Below, one piece after another: positions 853-11,596 of a stretch of 64,000 bases of DNA. The DNA comes from Scytonema millei VB511283 (lineage in GTDB: Bacteria; Cyanobacteriota; Cyanobacteriia; Cyanobacteriales; Chroococcidiopsidaceae). A program made the position numbers and the translations under genes. Numbering within the stretch: position 1 is the stretch's first letter; every line of letters starts with the position of its first letter. The stretch is taken from assembly GCF_000817735.3 (NCBI RefSeq), contig NZ_JTJC03000002.1, forward strand, positions 248,001-312,000. Direction: 5' to 3'. Under the pieces are notes generated by a model that worked only from the letters and a program-made list of their open reading frames with translations, did not search any database and was not told the DNA's origin.

Positions 853-3078
853 TTAACCAAACTTACCAGCAGTCGAAGCAATCACGAAAGCAGCATAAGT
901 GAGGACGTAGCCAACTGCAAAGTGAGCTAACCCCACAACGCGAGCTTGAACGATGGATAGAGCCACGGGCTTGTCTTTCCAGCGAATCAGGTTCGCAAGA
1001 GGTGTCCGTTCGTGCGCCCAGACCAAAGTTTCGATCAATTCTTGCCAGTAACCGCGCCAAGAAATCAGGAACATGAAACCAGTTGCCCAGACTAAGTGTC
1101 CCAACAGGAACATCCAAGACCAGACAGACAGGTTATTCATGCCATAGGGGTTATAGCCGTTAATCAACTGAGCTGAATACAGCCACAGGTAATCGCGCAA
1201 CCAACCCATGAGGTATGTCGAAGACTCGTTGAACTGAGCCACGTTACCTTGCCAAATTCCTAAGTGCTTCCAGTGCCAGTAGAACGTCACCCACCCAATC
1301 GTGTTCAGCATCCAGAATGCAGCCAGGTAGAAGGAGTCCCAAGCAGAGATATCGCAAGTGCCACCCCGACCGGGACCATCACAAGGGAAGGCATAGCCAA
1401 AGTCTTTCTTGTCTGGCATCAGCTTGGAACCGCGGGCATCTAAAGCGCCTTTGACTAATACCAACGTGGTTGTGTGTAAAGCGAGGGCAAATGCGTGGTG
1501 TACCAAGAAGTCACCAGGACCAATCGTCAAGAACAAAGAGTTCGTACCAGCATTGATCGCACCTAACCAACCAGGCAACCAGACGTTACCGTGATTGGGC
1601 CAAGCTGTTGTAGCGATACTATCTGGGTTAGACAACAGAGTATCGAAGCCGTACAAAACCTTACCGTGGGAAGCCTGAATGAACTGGGCGAACACGGGTT
1701 CGATTAGAATTTGCTTTTCGGGAGTACCGAAGGCAACGACGACATCGTTATGAACGTAAAGCCCTAGAGTATGGAAACCCAAGAAGAGCGATACCCAAGA
1801 CAGGTGAGAGATAATCGCCTCTTTGTGCTTCAGGACACGTTCTAATACGTTGCCCTTATTTTGCTCTGGATCGTAGTCCCGTACCCAGAAGATCGCTCCG
1901 TGGGCAAAAGCCCCCAGCATGATGAATCCAGCAATGTACTGGTGATGCGTGTATAACGCTGCCTGAGTCGTGTAGTCCTGCGCCATGAATGCGTAGGGAG
2001 GCAGGGAATACATGTGTTGTGCCACCAGCGAGGTGATGACCCCTAAGCAAGCCAAGTGCCAGCCGAGCTGGAAGTGGAGAGAGTTATTGTAGGTGTCGTA
2101 AATGCCTTGGTGAGGCATGTTGAACGGACCTTCTACCGGAACGCCAAAGAAGTTCTTGGCATTCATCATCTCTTTGATGCTGTGACCGATACCGAAGTTG
2201 GTACGGTACATGTGTCCGGCAACGATGAACAATACCGCGATCGCCAAATGATGGTGAGCGATATCCGTCAGCCATAAAGACTGAGTTTGAGGGTGGAAGC
2301 CACCTAAAAAGGTCAAGATAGCCGTCCCCGCACCCTGAGAGGTTCCAAATACATGATTGGCAGTGTCAGGGTTAGCAGCATAAGCCGCCCATTTCCCCGT
2401 AAAGAAGGGCGTTAGACCTTCTGGATGGGGTGGTGTAGTCAGAAAGTTATTCCAACCGACGTGCTGCCCGCGAGCCTCGGGAATAGCAACGTGAACCAGG
2501 TGTCCAGTCCAAGCTAAGGAGCTAACGCCAAACAATCCCGCTAGGTGATGGTTGAGGCGAGACTCCGCACTCTTAAACCAGGCAAGTCCTGGGCGGAATT
2601 TGGGCTGTAAGTGCAACCAGCCAGCTAGTAAGAATACCGAAGCTAGCAAGAGTAAAAACACCGAACCCATATAGAGGTCGTGGTTTGTCCGCATCCCGAT
2701 CGTGTACCACCAGTGATAAACACCGGAGTAGGAAATATCGACGGGATAGCTTGCCCCACCTTGGGTAAAAGCATCAACTGCGGCTTTACCGAATTGAGGG
2801 TCCCAAATTGCGTGAGCAATGGGACGGACGTGCAGTGGATCTTTTGTCCACTGCTCAAAATTTCCTTGCCAAGCTACGTGGAAGAGAAGGCTGGATGCCC
2901 AAAGAAAGATGATGGCAATGTGACCGAAGTGTGTAGCAAAAATCTTTTGATAAAGATTTTCCTCGGTCATTCCATCATGACTTTCAAAGTCGTGGGCGGT
3001 AGCAATCCCATACCATATCCGACGAGTGGTCGGGTCTTGTGCGAGATCTTGGCTAAATTTGGGAAATTTAGTTGCCAT
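853..3078 (-). CDS. psaB: Photosystem I P700 apoprotein A2 (PsaB), stand-alone copy
   Basis: PsaB forms the PSI reaction-centre heterodimer with PsaA, binding P700, the electron-transfer chain and the FX iron-sulfur cluster in the thylakoid membrane. The 741-aa frame is full length, from [19 protein letters not shown] to IASTAGKFG. The FX-ligand loop [13 protein letters not shown] is intact (Cys566, Cys575), as are the conserved TM blocks such as [11 protein letters not shown] and THHQYIAGF. The insertion [12 protein letters not shown] matches the longer PsaB form of filamentous relatives. A GGAGGA motif lies about 14 nt upstream of the ATG, a rather long spacing. psaA normally sits immediately upstream and is absent: 700 bp without a gene precede the start. 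This suggests a second copy comparable to PsaB2 of Nostoc, which is inference. No far-red cluster genes are seen nearby. Confidence 0.96.
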
Positions 3079-8393: not shown

Positions 8394-8900
8394 TCAATCA
8401 AACCAACCAATATCTTTATCTGAAAACGCAGATGATGACATGTCAGGTAAGGCGTAAGTTTGCACTGGTCTAGCTAAGGCAGAACTAACGGGTTTAGTAG
8501 CAGGTTTGGCAGCGGGTTTAGAGGCAGGCTTGGAGCTAGATTTAGAGTTAGTTTCTGTCAGTTTCAAAATCGTTTCTTTGGCTTGGTCGAGTTCTGCTTG
8601 CAACTTTTCAACTTTTTCAACTAAAGCTTTTTGGTCTTGGAGTTGCGATCGCAAATCTTCATTCTCTGTTTGGGCTGCTTCGAGCGCTGCTTGTATGTCT
8701 TTCACTGTGGTTTCCAGTTCGGCTTTAGTGGGACTGGTACGACGATGATTTGTGGCAGATTCAGAATTTGCAGATTCAGAATTTGTCTCTTCTGACGTGG
8801 GTTCCTCCACAACCAGTTTCGCTTCTACCGTAATCTCCTGCGGTTCGGCAGACTTTTGCGCCTCTTCTTTCAATAAATCGGATAGATTTTTTCTCACCAT
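8394..8900 (-). CDS. mcdB: Candidate carboxysome-positioning protein McdB (coiled-coil partner of the ParA-type ATPase)
   Basis: 168 aa. An N-terminal charged block (VRKNLSDLLKEEAQKS) is followed by an acidic disordered stretch with repeated SESAN-type residues, a central coiled coil (about 65-120: DIQAALEAAQTENEDLRSQL and EKLQAELDQAKETILKL), an SKPA/KPATK-rich linker, and a C-terminus ending DIGWFD. The terminal Trp, central coiled coil and charged disordered N-terminus are features reported for cyanobacterial McdB. Start 8900 is preferred because GGAGGAA lies 4-10 nt upstream; a longer form from 8912 is possible. The gene overlaps the stop of the upstream ParA-type gene by 7 bp. McdB would load on carboxysomes and stimulate McdA ATPase to space them over the nucleoid. 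The name rests on architecture and context, not on alignment. Confidence 0.6.
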   Translation of the reverse strand: MVRKNLSDLLKEEAQKSAEPQEITVEAKLVVEEPTSEETNSESANSESATNHRRTSPTKAELETTVKDIQAALEAAQTENEDLRSQLQDQKALVEKVEKLQAELDQAKETILKLTETNSKSSSKPASKPAAKPATKPVSSALARPVQTYALPDMSSSAFSDKDIGWFD

Positions 8901-9541
8901 AACTTCCTCCAATCCCTCTCCATTTCGTCGGCGACTTTACGGTAATCTAATTGTGCCTCTTTCGCGTGCTTTCCTCGCCACTGGACGATTGGCACGCCAT
9001 CTAAAGCTGCTCGTTCGTGGGCTTTATAGGCGCGGATGACAGTCTTGCAAGCTGGAATACCAAGTTCTTTAAGGGTGTTTTGAGCTGCTTGCGCGTCCGT
9101 CCAACTGCGAGGATCGACTCGCGTTAGAAGGACGCGATGGGCTACCCCTGATGGTACGACTGCACGTCTGACTGTCTCAACTAGGATAGCTAAATCCATC
9201 GGTGCTGGCGGCGTTGGTAACAATAAATAATCTGCCGCTGCGATCGCTGCTGCTAACGATTCTGAGTTGAGCGCTGGTGGCGTATCGACGACGACGAGTT
9301 CGTATTCCTCTATTTGCTTCAATTTACCCAATAGTAAGGGATCGGTTTCCTGTACTAAATCGAAATCCATTTTCTGTTCGCCGCGATCGACCCACCAAGA
9401 AAAACTGCCTTGAACGTCGGCATCGACCGCTAAGACTTTGTAATGCTCGGCAAGAATTCCTGCCAAAGCCATACTTGTTGTGGTTTTACCCACGCCACCT
9501 TTACCATTCGCCACAACAATTATCTTGGGTTGCCGAGCCAT
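8894..9541 (-). CDS. mcdA: ParA/MinD-family ATPase, candidate McdA
   Basis: 215 aa from the ATG at 9541 (MARQPKIIVVANGKGGVGKT); a 7-codon longer form from 9562 is less likely. The deviant Walker A KGGVGKTT carries the signature lysine. Walker A' is VLAVDADVQGSFSWW, Walker B is YELVVVDTPPAL, and LLPTPPAPMDLAILVETV follows as in ParA dimer interfaces. It overlaps a small coiled-coil protein ending in a Trp-containing tail, the arrangement of two-gene ParA cargo-positioning systems. A plasmid partition role is less likely: neither a ParB nor a centromere array is seen and the neighbours are chromosomal. Known McdA dimers bind DNA nonspecifically in the ATP state, forming gradients that move carboxysomes. 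Confidence 0.7.
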   Translation of the reverse strand: MARQPKIIVVANGKGGVGKTTTSMALAGILAEHYKVLAVDADVQGSFSWWVDRGEQKMDFDLVQETDPLLLGKLKQIEEYELVVVDTPPALNSESLAAAIAAADYLLLPTPPAPMDLAILVETVRRAVVPSGVAHRVLLTRVDPRSWTDAQAAQNTLKELGIPACKTVIRAYKAHERAALDGVPIVQWRGKHAKEAQLDYRKVADEMERDWRKLW

Positions 9542-9589: not shown

Positions 9590-11596
9590 TTACGGCGATA
9601 GATGCCAAAAAGCGATTGTCTTGTCTGCACTACCACTAACTAAAGTTTGTCCATCTCGGCTGAATGCAACCGACCAAACCGGAGCTGAATGTCCTCTTAG
9701 GGTAGCTAGCGTCTCTCCTGTAATCAAGTTCCATACCCGAATTGTCTTGTCATCGCTACCTGTCGCAATTTTTTGACCGTCTGGGCTGAAGGCGACAAAA
9801 TTGACATCAGCTGAATGTCCCGTCAAGGTGCGTATTTCTCGTCCCGTATTGGGATTCCAAATTTTGATCGAGCGATCGTCACTGACGCTTGCCAGTTCTT
9901 GACCAGTCGGACTAAAGGCGAGAGAATTAACATCGCCTGTATGCCCTCTGAGGGTGAAAATTTCCTGTCCTGTATGGAAATTCCAGATTTTAATTGTTCT
10001 ATCTGTACTACTGCTGGCAAGCTTTAAAACATCTGGGCTAATGGCAACGGACAAAACTTCAGCAGCATGACCCCTCAAAGTCCGAAGTTCCTCTCCTGTC
10101 TTGAGGTTCCAGATTTTAATTGTTTTGTCATAACTCCCACTAGCAAATTTTTGACCGTCGGGGCTAATGGCAACGGTATCAACATAGCTAGCATGACCCT
10201 TGAGGCTACGAAGTTCCCGTCCCGTATTCAAGTTCCAAACTTTGACTGTATTATCTTTACTGCCACTGACTAGAGTTTGACTATCTGGGCTAATAGCGAC
10301 AGAGTAAACCCAGTTGGTATGACCTTTAAGGGTGTTGAGTTCTCGGCGATCGCTAAAATTCCAAATTTTAATCGTTTTGTCGTCGCTACCACTAGCAAAC
10401 TTCTGTCCGTCTGGACTGAAATCAATCGTATTAACTTCCCCAGTATGCCCTGCGATCGTAGAGATTCGGTTGAGATACCAATAACCATATCCCACCAATC
10501 CTAATAGCAGGATGATACCCCCTGCTAGCAGTCTCTTCTGCAACCGTTGGGGAGGAACAAGCGTGGGCGGCGGGTGAGTGCGATCGCGCTGCAGTCGCTT
10601 TCCCGTACTCGATAGCTGTTCTGTAGGGGTAGAATCTGCCCTAATGCTACCAATCTCGCTTGACGGTAGTTGGGTTTCGATTGTTGCTGGGTCAACAGAT
10701 AACTGGATGCGATCGCTGAAGTCTCGCAGAACTTCATCTGCGTGTTGATAGCGCTGAAGAAAGTCCTTTTGCAGCAGCTTATCTAGAACTCGCTCTAGTT
10801 TGTGACTAATTGGCGTTTTGAGATATTGTCGCCAGTCTGTCACCCAGCTATAGCCTTTTTCCGTCCACAGTTGAGATGGATGGATTTGCGTTAGCAGATA
10901 AAAGCAAGTGACACCTAAACTGTAGAGATCGCTGGCTGGGTAGGCATCCCCAATATTCATTTGTTCCAGCGAGGCGTAACCAAAGGAGCCGATGCTTGTT
11001 CCTGGACTAGCGATCGCCGTTGCCGATAATTGCTTGGAAATGCCAAAATCAATCAGAACTGGTTTACCGTCACTCTGACGACGAATAATGTTTTCTGGCT
11101 TGAGATCCCGATGAATCACATGATGGGCGTGGATAAACTGGAGAACTGGCAATAAGTCACTCAATAGTTGCCAAATTTGTTCCTCGCTAAATATTCCGTG
11201 TTGCTCGACTTCCTGCTGTAAAGTTTGCCCTACAATCAATTGCTGTACCAAATACAGGTAGTTATCCTGTTCAAAATAGGCGTACAAGGCAGGAATCTGC
11301 GGATGTTCCCCTAACTGTTGCAAGCGCTGTGCCTCTTCCTGAAACAGCTCATTTGCCTTTTGCCAAGCTCTGGTTCCTGGAAATTGCGATACCAATTGCT
11401 TGACAACACAGGGTTCGTTGAGTTTGTCTGTATCTTCTGCCAAAAAAGTTCTGCCAAACCCGCCGCTACCTAACTGGCGGACGATCTGATAGCGATAGCG
11501 CAGCAGCGGCTGGATTTCTTTGCCGCAACTGTGGCAGAAGGGCGTTCCTTTGGGGTTCAAAGGCTTCTGGCAACTAGGGTTGAGGCAGTAACTCAT
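9590..11596 (-). CDS. Ser/Thr protein kinase with N-terminal zinc ribbon and seven WD40 repeats
   Basis: 668 aa. Residues 1-27 form a zinc ribbon with two CxxxxC/CxxC pairs (CLNPSCQKPL, CHSCGKEI). The kinase domain spans about 33-300 with glycine loop LGSGGFGRTF, lysine in CVVKQLV, catalytic HVIHRDLKPENII and LIDFGISKQ, so it should be active. A proline/Ser linker leads to a transmembrane helix near 355-372 (LLAGGIILLLGLVGYGYWYL). Seven WD40 units of 42 aa fill 380-668, each with GH...V.S.AFSPDG...SGS.D.TIKIWN. Such membrane-bound kinases with an external or periplasmic propeller are a typical cyanobacterial signalling class. The 126-bp DNA period of the repeats is evident at 9600-10460. Substrate unknown. 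Confidence 0.95.
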   Translation of the reverse strand: MSYCLNPSCQKPLNPKGTPFCHSCGKEIQPLLRYRYQIVRQLGSGGFGRTFLAEDTDKLNEPCVVKQLVSQFPGTRAWQKANELFQEEAQRLQQLGEHPQIPALYAYFEQDNYLYLVQQLIVGQTLQQEVEQHGIFSEEQIWQLLSDLLPVLQFIHAHHVIHRDLKPENIIRRQSDGKPVLIDFGISKQLSATAIASPGTSIGSFGYASLEQMNIGDAYPASDLYSLGVTCFYLLTQIHPSQLWTEKGYSWVTDWRQYLKTPISHKLERVLDKLLQKDFLQRYQHADEVLRDFSDRIQLSVDPATIETQLPSSEIGSIRADSTPTEQLSSTGKRLQRDRTHPPPTLVPPQRLQKRLLAGGIILLLGLVGYGYWYLNRISTIAGHTGEVNTIDFSPDGQKFASGSDDKTIKIWNFSDRRELNTLKGHTNWVYSVAISPDSQTLVSGSKDNTVKVWNLNTGRELRSLKGHASYVDTVAISPDGQKFASGSYDKTIKIWNLKTGEELRTLRGHAAEVLSVAISPDVLKLASSSTDRTIKIWNFHTGQEIFTLRGHTGDVNSLAFSPTGQELASVSDDRSIKIWNPNTGREIRTLTGHSADVNFVAFSPDGQKIATGSDDKTIRVWNLITGETLATLRGHSAPVWSVAFSRDGQTLVSGSADKTIAFWHLSP

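Follow-up and report, generated by a model that had tools for sequence, protein, structure and literature searches.

A chromosomal mcdA-mcdB gene pair, probably a beta-McdAB type 2 carboxysome-spacing system

In the described McdAB systems, ATP-bound McdA binds the nucleoid, and McdB residing on carboxysomes triggers ATP hydrolysis and release, which results in carboxysome spacing (PMC13052382; here and below, published statements are given as found in the accessible parts of the sources). Type 2 McdA retains the signature lysine and has no insert; type 2 McdB has a glutamine-rich centre and a central coiled coil, and a charged N-terminus is typical of McdB proteins encoded beside mcdA (PMC8262871). 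McdB has one invariant C-terminal tryptophan, its last ten residues are enriched in aspartate, and beta-McdB proteins are 132-394 aa long (PMC11321042). The tryptophan is required for association with carboxysomes (PMC11321042), and in H. neapolitanus McdB the contact with McdA is made by residues 1-20, Lys7 included (PMC12204374).

Here we consider two genes in a window of 64,000 nucleotides, i.e., the whole stretch of DNA analysed (C2:248001-312000 of a 5.97-Mb genome in 17 contigs). The genes mcdA (9541-8894) and mcdB (8900-8394) are on the same (minus) strand, with mcdB downstream and a 7-bp overlap; the open reading frames, coordinates, strand and overlap are all as described in the initial annotation, which reported a ParA gene overlapping a small-protein gene. 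We believe that the pair is a chromosomal beta-McdAB type 2 system, a carboxysome-spacing ATPase with its adaptor, and put the probability of this reading at about 0.92. The features, in window positions, are as follows.

8394..8900, minus strand: probable mcdB (type 2), adaptor of 168 aa, 7-bp overlap with mcdA.
8397..8426, minus strand: McdB residues 159-168, FSDKDIGWFD, which include the invariant Trp166; carboxysome binding is expected at this end (for the role, see PMC11321042, accessible part).
8535..8726, minus strand: McdB residues 59-122, predicted long central helix or coiled coil.
8847..8900, minus strand: McdB residues 1-18, MVRKNLSDLLKEEAQKSA, charged and conserved N-terminal helix; expected McdA-contact site by analogy with PMC12204374 (accessible part).
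8894..9541, minus strand: probable mcdA (type 2), ParA/MinD-family ATPase of 215 aa with the signature lysine K14 and without the mid-protein insert.
9590..11596, minus strand: protein kinase-WD40 gene, 48 bp upstream of mcdA on the same strand; Pkinase and WD40 both over the cut-off.

The order kinase-mcdA-mcdB is maintained in both congeners, with kinase-mcdA gaps of 213 and 179 bp. Co-transcription of the kinase-WD40 gene with mcdAB is possible; we regard it as a candidate neighbour, which does not imply membership in the system. The promoter scan (6 promoter-like sites, 5.2 expected) and the terminator scan (2 terminator-like sites, 4.5 expected) were uninformative. Separately, a gene of the PsaA/PsaB family is located at 853-3078 of the window (minus strand), apart from the psaA-psaB pair on contig C11. 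Of PsaA/PsaB matches the genome has four, and far-red-light paralogues may be among them.

A ParA-type ATPase with KGGVGKTT had been proposed from the sequence, and the 215-aa protein agrees with this: its gene starts with ATG at 9541, the translation contains the Walker A motif NGKGGVGKTTT, and Pfam assigns AAA_31 (3.7e-19) and CbiA (3.6e-16), each above the cut-off. The best NCBIfam model, ParA_partition, scores 120.6 bits against a cut-off of 180. The signature lysine, also claimed to be kept, is K14 and is invariant in 21 of 21 aligned ATPases. Their alignment spans 225 columns with a mean column identity of 75%; all 21 sequences, with the 215 residues of McdA, fit within these columns, i.e., the mid-protein extension is absent. 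The AlphaFold model has a ParA-type fold (pTM 0.79).

For the partner protein, the annotation pointed to a charged N-terminus, a central coiled coil and a Trp-containing C-terminus (GWFD), and all three were recovered. The first 20 residues contain four K/R and four D/E. AlphaFold predicts helices at residues 6-17 and 59-122, with the remainder at low confidence, and the enrichment of heptad positions a/d in residues 59-122 is matched by 13 of 10,000 shuffles. The protein ends in IGWFD, and Trp166 is invariant, along with D8, E13, L83, K108 and L114, in an alignment of 23 McdB partners. Its 168 aa fall inside the published length range of beta-McdB. Seven glutamines lie in residues 59-122 (64 residues) against three in the other 104, the published glutamine criterion being given in the accessible part of its source without a numerical threshold. 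The pLDDT is below 70 for 97 of the 168 residues; this is a proxy for disorder, whereas the published average of 64% (accessible part of the source) was obtained with PONDR. Pfam and NCBIfam searches with McdB gave no family above the cut-off, DNA-binding families included. A comparison with the PDB yielded six matches, the best (E 0.03) in a low-complexity stretch, which we take as chance.

The fit of this layout to cyanobacterial type 2 McdAB, proposed at the outset, is thus retained on the lysine, the missing insert, the A-B adjacency, the charged N-terminus, the coiled coil and the tryptophan. As judged from sequence, the analysis supports the presence of all published characters of beta-McdAB type 2 that can be checked, none being contradicted; the values for glutamine richness and percentage disorder speak neither for nor against. 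The pair is an ordinary, well-supported member of an already known system type; the gain is a name for two genes for which Pfam and NCBIfam offer no more than ParA and an unknown protein.

When 60 genomes were searched with the 168-aa McdB at E 0.01, 35 had a match, counting the window genome itself; the weakest matches, part of which lie in frames of 619-1416 aa, probably arose by chance. Among 30 McdB loci compared (L016-L045, of which L016 is the window locus), ParA lies directly upstream of mcdB in 28 (27 by script and L021 by eye); the exceptions are L036, where McdB has no neighbouring ParA, and L037, which has no intact pair. The overlap is 7 bp in the window pair and its two congeners and 1 bp in 21 of 27 pairs. 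In named genomes, the ATPase alignment picked up at least 419 relatives, of which the best 80, all with cyanobacterial titles, were kept. Among these best 80 of at least 419 loci, the protein after mcdA has a McdB-type N-terminus in 79 (by eye), and the partner has a tryptophan at most four residues from its end in 76. The loci without the terminal tryptophan are L097 (a run of unknown bases), L107 (an early frame end near the contig end), L123 (an altered 3' end) and L112 (no McdB-like partner). The arrangement is not due to chance, because both the gene order and the C-terminal tryptophan are conserved.

The McdB ends at L056 (Chlorogloea CCALA 695) and L057 (Chroococcidiopsidaceae YX2bin18) are shared with members of family f1. 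Two genomes were identified as Picosynechococcus PCC 7117 (G046; 100% match of a 4,675-bp replicon) and PCC 7003 (G129; 100% match over 7,000 bases). McdA of PCC 7117 is 58% identical to the window McdA and is followed by a 191-aa protein ending in EEIGWFD (DKDIGWFD in the window). BLAST aligns only the last 18 residues of the two McdB proteins (E 1e-5), and their similarity outside the end is low. PCC 7002, of the same genus as PCC 7117, is the source of the purified type 2 McdB, a dimer (PMC8262871, accessible part).

The initial annotation would have been refuted if McdB profiles had missed the 168-aa protein and fitted another gene beside a second ParA. The profile used here, built from relatives of the window McdB, has a single match in the genome, which is the 168-aa protein, and a search with the McdB sequence gave the same single match. 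After the other small ParA gene, C4:2759 (L003:1498-2396, G000:C4), comes one for an 88-aa protein; CopG_antitoxin is its top Pfam match, below the cut-off, and this ParA and its neighbour are perhaps a plasmid- or island-type pair. A second McdAB in the genome was rejected on the same grounds: C4:2759, the only other small ParA found with the McdA profile at E 1e-10, adjoins this weakly CopG-like protein.

The genome encodes seven BMC domains. Its ccm cluster, ccmK-K-L-M-N-O, is located on contig C3, as is RbcL, and so not near mcdAB, which is on contig C2. CcmL was called by profile; the CcmM-like protein has three RuBisCO_small stretches and hexapeptide repeats, the CcmO-like protein has two BMC domains, and CcmN is named by position, its hexapeptide match being just under the cut-off. 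CsoS2 has no match in this genome.

The phylum sample comprised 386 genomes and was searched with the profiles of McdA (E 1e-45), BMC (E 1e-10) and McdB (E 0.001). McdA was matched in 63 genomes, BMC in 197 and CsoS2 in 57. McdA is found in 61 of the 126 genomes of the class with BMC and without CsoS2 (in one of the 61, G222, it is broken). At E 1e-45, the profile matches none of the 57 genomes with CsoS2 (alpha-carboxysomes) and none of the 14 BMC genomes outside the class. Two of the 189 genomes without BMC have a match, namely G304 (a stop and an altered Walker A) and G408 (a divergent ParA). The latter was considered as a counter-example and set aside: most members score about 320-410 bits and its ParA 222, and the McdB profile gives no match next to this ParA. 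For 65 of the 126 beta-type genomes there is no McdA match at E 1e-45, so these genomes either can do without the system or have a version too divergent for the profile. The McdB profile matches 85 of the 386 genomes at E 0.001, none of them with CsoS2. In the 63 McdA genomes, McdB is within 400 bp in 42, elsewhere in 15 and without a match in 6; in three of these six (G213, G046 and G304) a local scan detects McdB beside mcdA. The pair is widespread among beta-cyanobacteria, PCC 7117 being one of them. The distribution of McdA is tied to beta-carboxysome lineages but is confounded by phylogeny.

Two further observations concern this sample. The mcdB-like match of 15 of the 63 genomes is not linked to mcdA: it lies on a different contig or at a distance of 99 kb or more (L138/L139 in G347, L140/L141 in G025, also G135, G141 and others). 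The genome G408 (2.2 Mb, 99% complete) contains PsaAB and RbcL and has no match to BMC (E 1e-10), CcmL or CsoS2; perhaps it is a photosynthetic cyanobacterium without carboxysomes, or there is an assembly gap.

Since the distribution counts are confounded by phylogeny, independent decay of the genes counts for more. In the genus g60, no stops interrupt mcdA, PsaAB, RbcL or CcmL of the 4.8-Mb genome G183 (L134), which also has six BMC domains. The three reduced, non-photosynthetic genomes examined in this genus, G187 (2.8 Mb), G222 (3.0 Mb, L132) and G304 (3.1 Mb, L133), each have stops within mcdA, and in G304 its Walker A motif is altered as well. Each of the three has a broken RbcL. A broken PsaAB remains in G222 and G304, with none detected in G187; a broken CcmL remains in G187 and G222, with none detected in G304. 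Two BMC matches are left in G222 and none in G187 or G304. The gene mcdB is shortened in G222, and in G304 it is open and retains the tryptophan despite the broken or missing mcdA and shell genes. Diatom spheroid bodies have genomes of 2.5-3.1 Mb and have lost carboxysome proteins (PMC12903740, accessible part); the size and losses of the three genomes fit this, and we infer that they belong to such symbionts. The breakage of mcdA in reduced genomes missing carboxysome genes is a natural test of the carboxysome link, which is supported by the distribution and the co-decay taken together.

By analogy with S. elongatus and H. neapolitanus, the ATPase cycle, DNA binding, carboxysome binding and spacing may be pictured as follows. 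ATP-bound McdA dimers would coat the nucleoid; McdB would bind beta-carboxysomes by its C-terminal Trp-Phe-Asp end and oligomerise through the central coiled coil. Contact of its basic N-terminal helix with McdA would cause ATP hydrolysis and release from DNA. Carboxysomes would then follow McdA gradients, remain apart and be divided between daughter cells. A basic helix and a Trp end matching those of the studied proteins are carried by the window McdB.

In 23 genomes, mcdB occurs without a McdA match at E 1e-45: 20 of family f33 as well as G067, G224 and G325 (L142-L144 and L148-L167, in G113, G104, G320, G067, G267, G076 and others). There were initially 28 genomes with McdB and no McdA match, and five were set aside. 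G073, G125 and G159 are outside the class and have their matches in frames of 626-1798 aa; these were rejected as chance coiled-coil matches, and the weak matches in G090 and G051 were left out. Local scans beside the orphan mcdB genes revealed no full McdA (in G101 the gene is close to the contig start), and remnants of mcdA lie directly upstream of an open mcdB in G237, G287, G320 and G419. For 15 of the 23, the search was extended to the whole genome, and the best ATPase match there reached 127 bits vs about 400 for true McdA. The tryptophan is retained in 22 of the 23 orphan genes, that of G195 being cut by the contig end. The median dN/dS of orphan mcdB is 0.228 in g47 (28 pairs, 8 of 9 genomes, without G195), 0.217 in g66 (3 pairs) and 0.184 in g48 (1 pair); for paired mcdB it is 0.219 in the window genus, 0.218 in g6 and 0.099 in g2/g3 (3 pairs each). 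The orphan mcdB genes compared are under purifying selection. Our literature search, with the founding McdAB survey outside its reach, found nothing, among the papers listed, on orphan mcdB, on mcdB in endosymbionts, or on McdA/McdB together with Chroococcidiopsis, Nodularia or Nostoc.

The orphan genes make it tempting to assign McdB an independent role in carboxysome composition or size and to regard its coupling to McdA as secondary. The retained tryptophan, the four remnants of mcdA and a dN/dS of 0.18-0.23 (group medians) against 0.22 for the paired genes of the window genus agree with this, as does the report that a McdB variant affects Rubisco content with or without McdA (PMC10554743, accessible part). 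However, both window genes are intact and overlapping, one paired control group (g2/g3) has a lower dN/dS, and an unlinked McdA may serve the orphan McdB in some genomes, even though the best match in the 15 genomes searched was weak. As an explanation of the window pair we consider it unlikely. The broader idea, that association with carboxysomes and a function of its own are the basic properties of McdB and that coupling to McdA is a separable module, fares better: since many f33 genomes have lost mcdA and yet keep mcdB with its tryptophan under purifying selection, the window McdB may also shape carboxysomes by a route separate from positioning. We propose this tentatively, at somewhat less than even odds; it leads to a question that can be tested, that of the function of McdB in genomes from which mcdA has gone.

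The remaining alternatives concern the cargo. A ParA-partner pair of the same architecture could position something other than a carboxysome, and a possible instance is known from G332. In addition to McdAB (L137), it has a second ParA (L136:2005-3088, G332:C122) with a 144-aa partner that starts with MAKRNITDLLGEELTES; the N-terminus is McdB-like, Pfam gives no match, and there is no tryptophan in the 14 C-terminal residues examined. Related pairs with a different end therefore exist, possibly for another cargo. The window McdB, however, ends in the carboxysome-type Trp-acidic motif, the ATPase profile at E 1e-45 has no match in any of the 57 alpha-carboxysome genomes, and mcdA is broken in the three reduced genomes with lost or broken carboxysome genes, so that we find this very improbable for the window pair. 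Still less credible is a plasmid- or island-type DNA partition pair of the ParF/ParG kind, although ParA_partition is the best, below-cut-off NCBIfam model of the ATPase and ParF is among its nearest folds. We reject plasmid partition because the partner does not resemble a DNA-binding protein: it has no Pfam or NCBIfam family over the cut-off and its model shows a long helix between disordered flanks. Moreover, the mcdA-mcdB pair is conserved across an order, and the more plasmid-like partner in this genome is that of C4:2759 (88 aa, weak CopG resemblance).

We compare the locus with known systems under the reading preferred above, a beta-McdAB type 2 pair. The solved structure nearest to the McdA model is the Synechocystis ParA 3cwq, a near full-length match with 31% identity that is not labelled McdA. 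ParF and Soj structures are closer to the window McdA than those of Cyanothece McdA (6non/6noo/6nop), which share the ParA fold and have chains of 271-278 aa; the identity to the latter is 18% (6non and 6nop), and the best sequence stretch covers query residues 5-52 only. Alpha-McdAB (Halothiobacillus) has in common with the window McdB a basic N-terminal helix and a C-terminal tryptophan; alpha-McdB, however, has no coiled coil and ends in R(V/I)WPD (PMC11321042, PMC8262871, accessible parts), and the carboxysome of the window genome is of the beta type, CsoS2 giving no match. With beta-McdAB type 1 (S. elongatus PCC 7942), the pair is expected to share mechanism and cargo. Type 1 McdA, though, is without the signature lysine and carries an extension in mid-protein, and the coiled coil of type 1 McdB is C-terminal (PMC8262871, accessible part); type 1 is ruled out for the window pair by the presence of K14 and the missing extension in the 21-sequence alignment. 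Compared with beta-McdAB type 2, the glutamine richness of the window McdB is modest (7 of 64 residues in the coiled coil) and no excluding feature was found; shared are the signature lysine, the lack of the insert, the A-B order, the charged N-terminus, the central coiled coil and the terminal tryptophan with aspartate.
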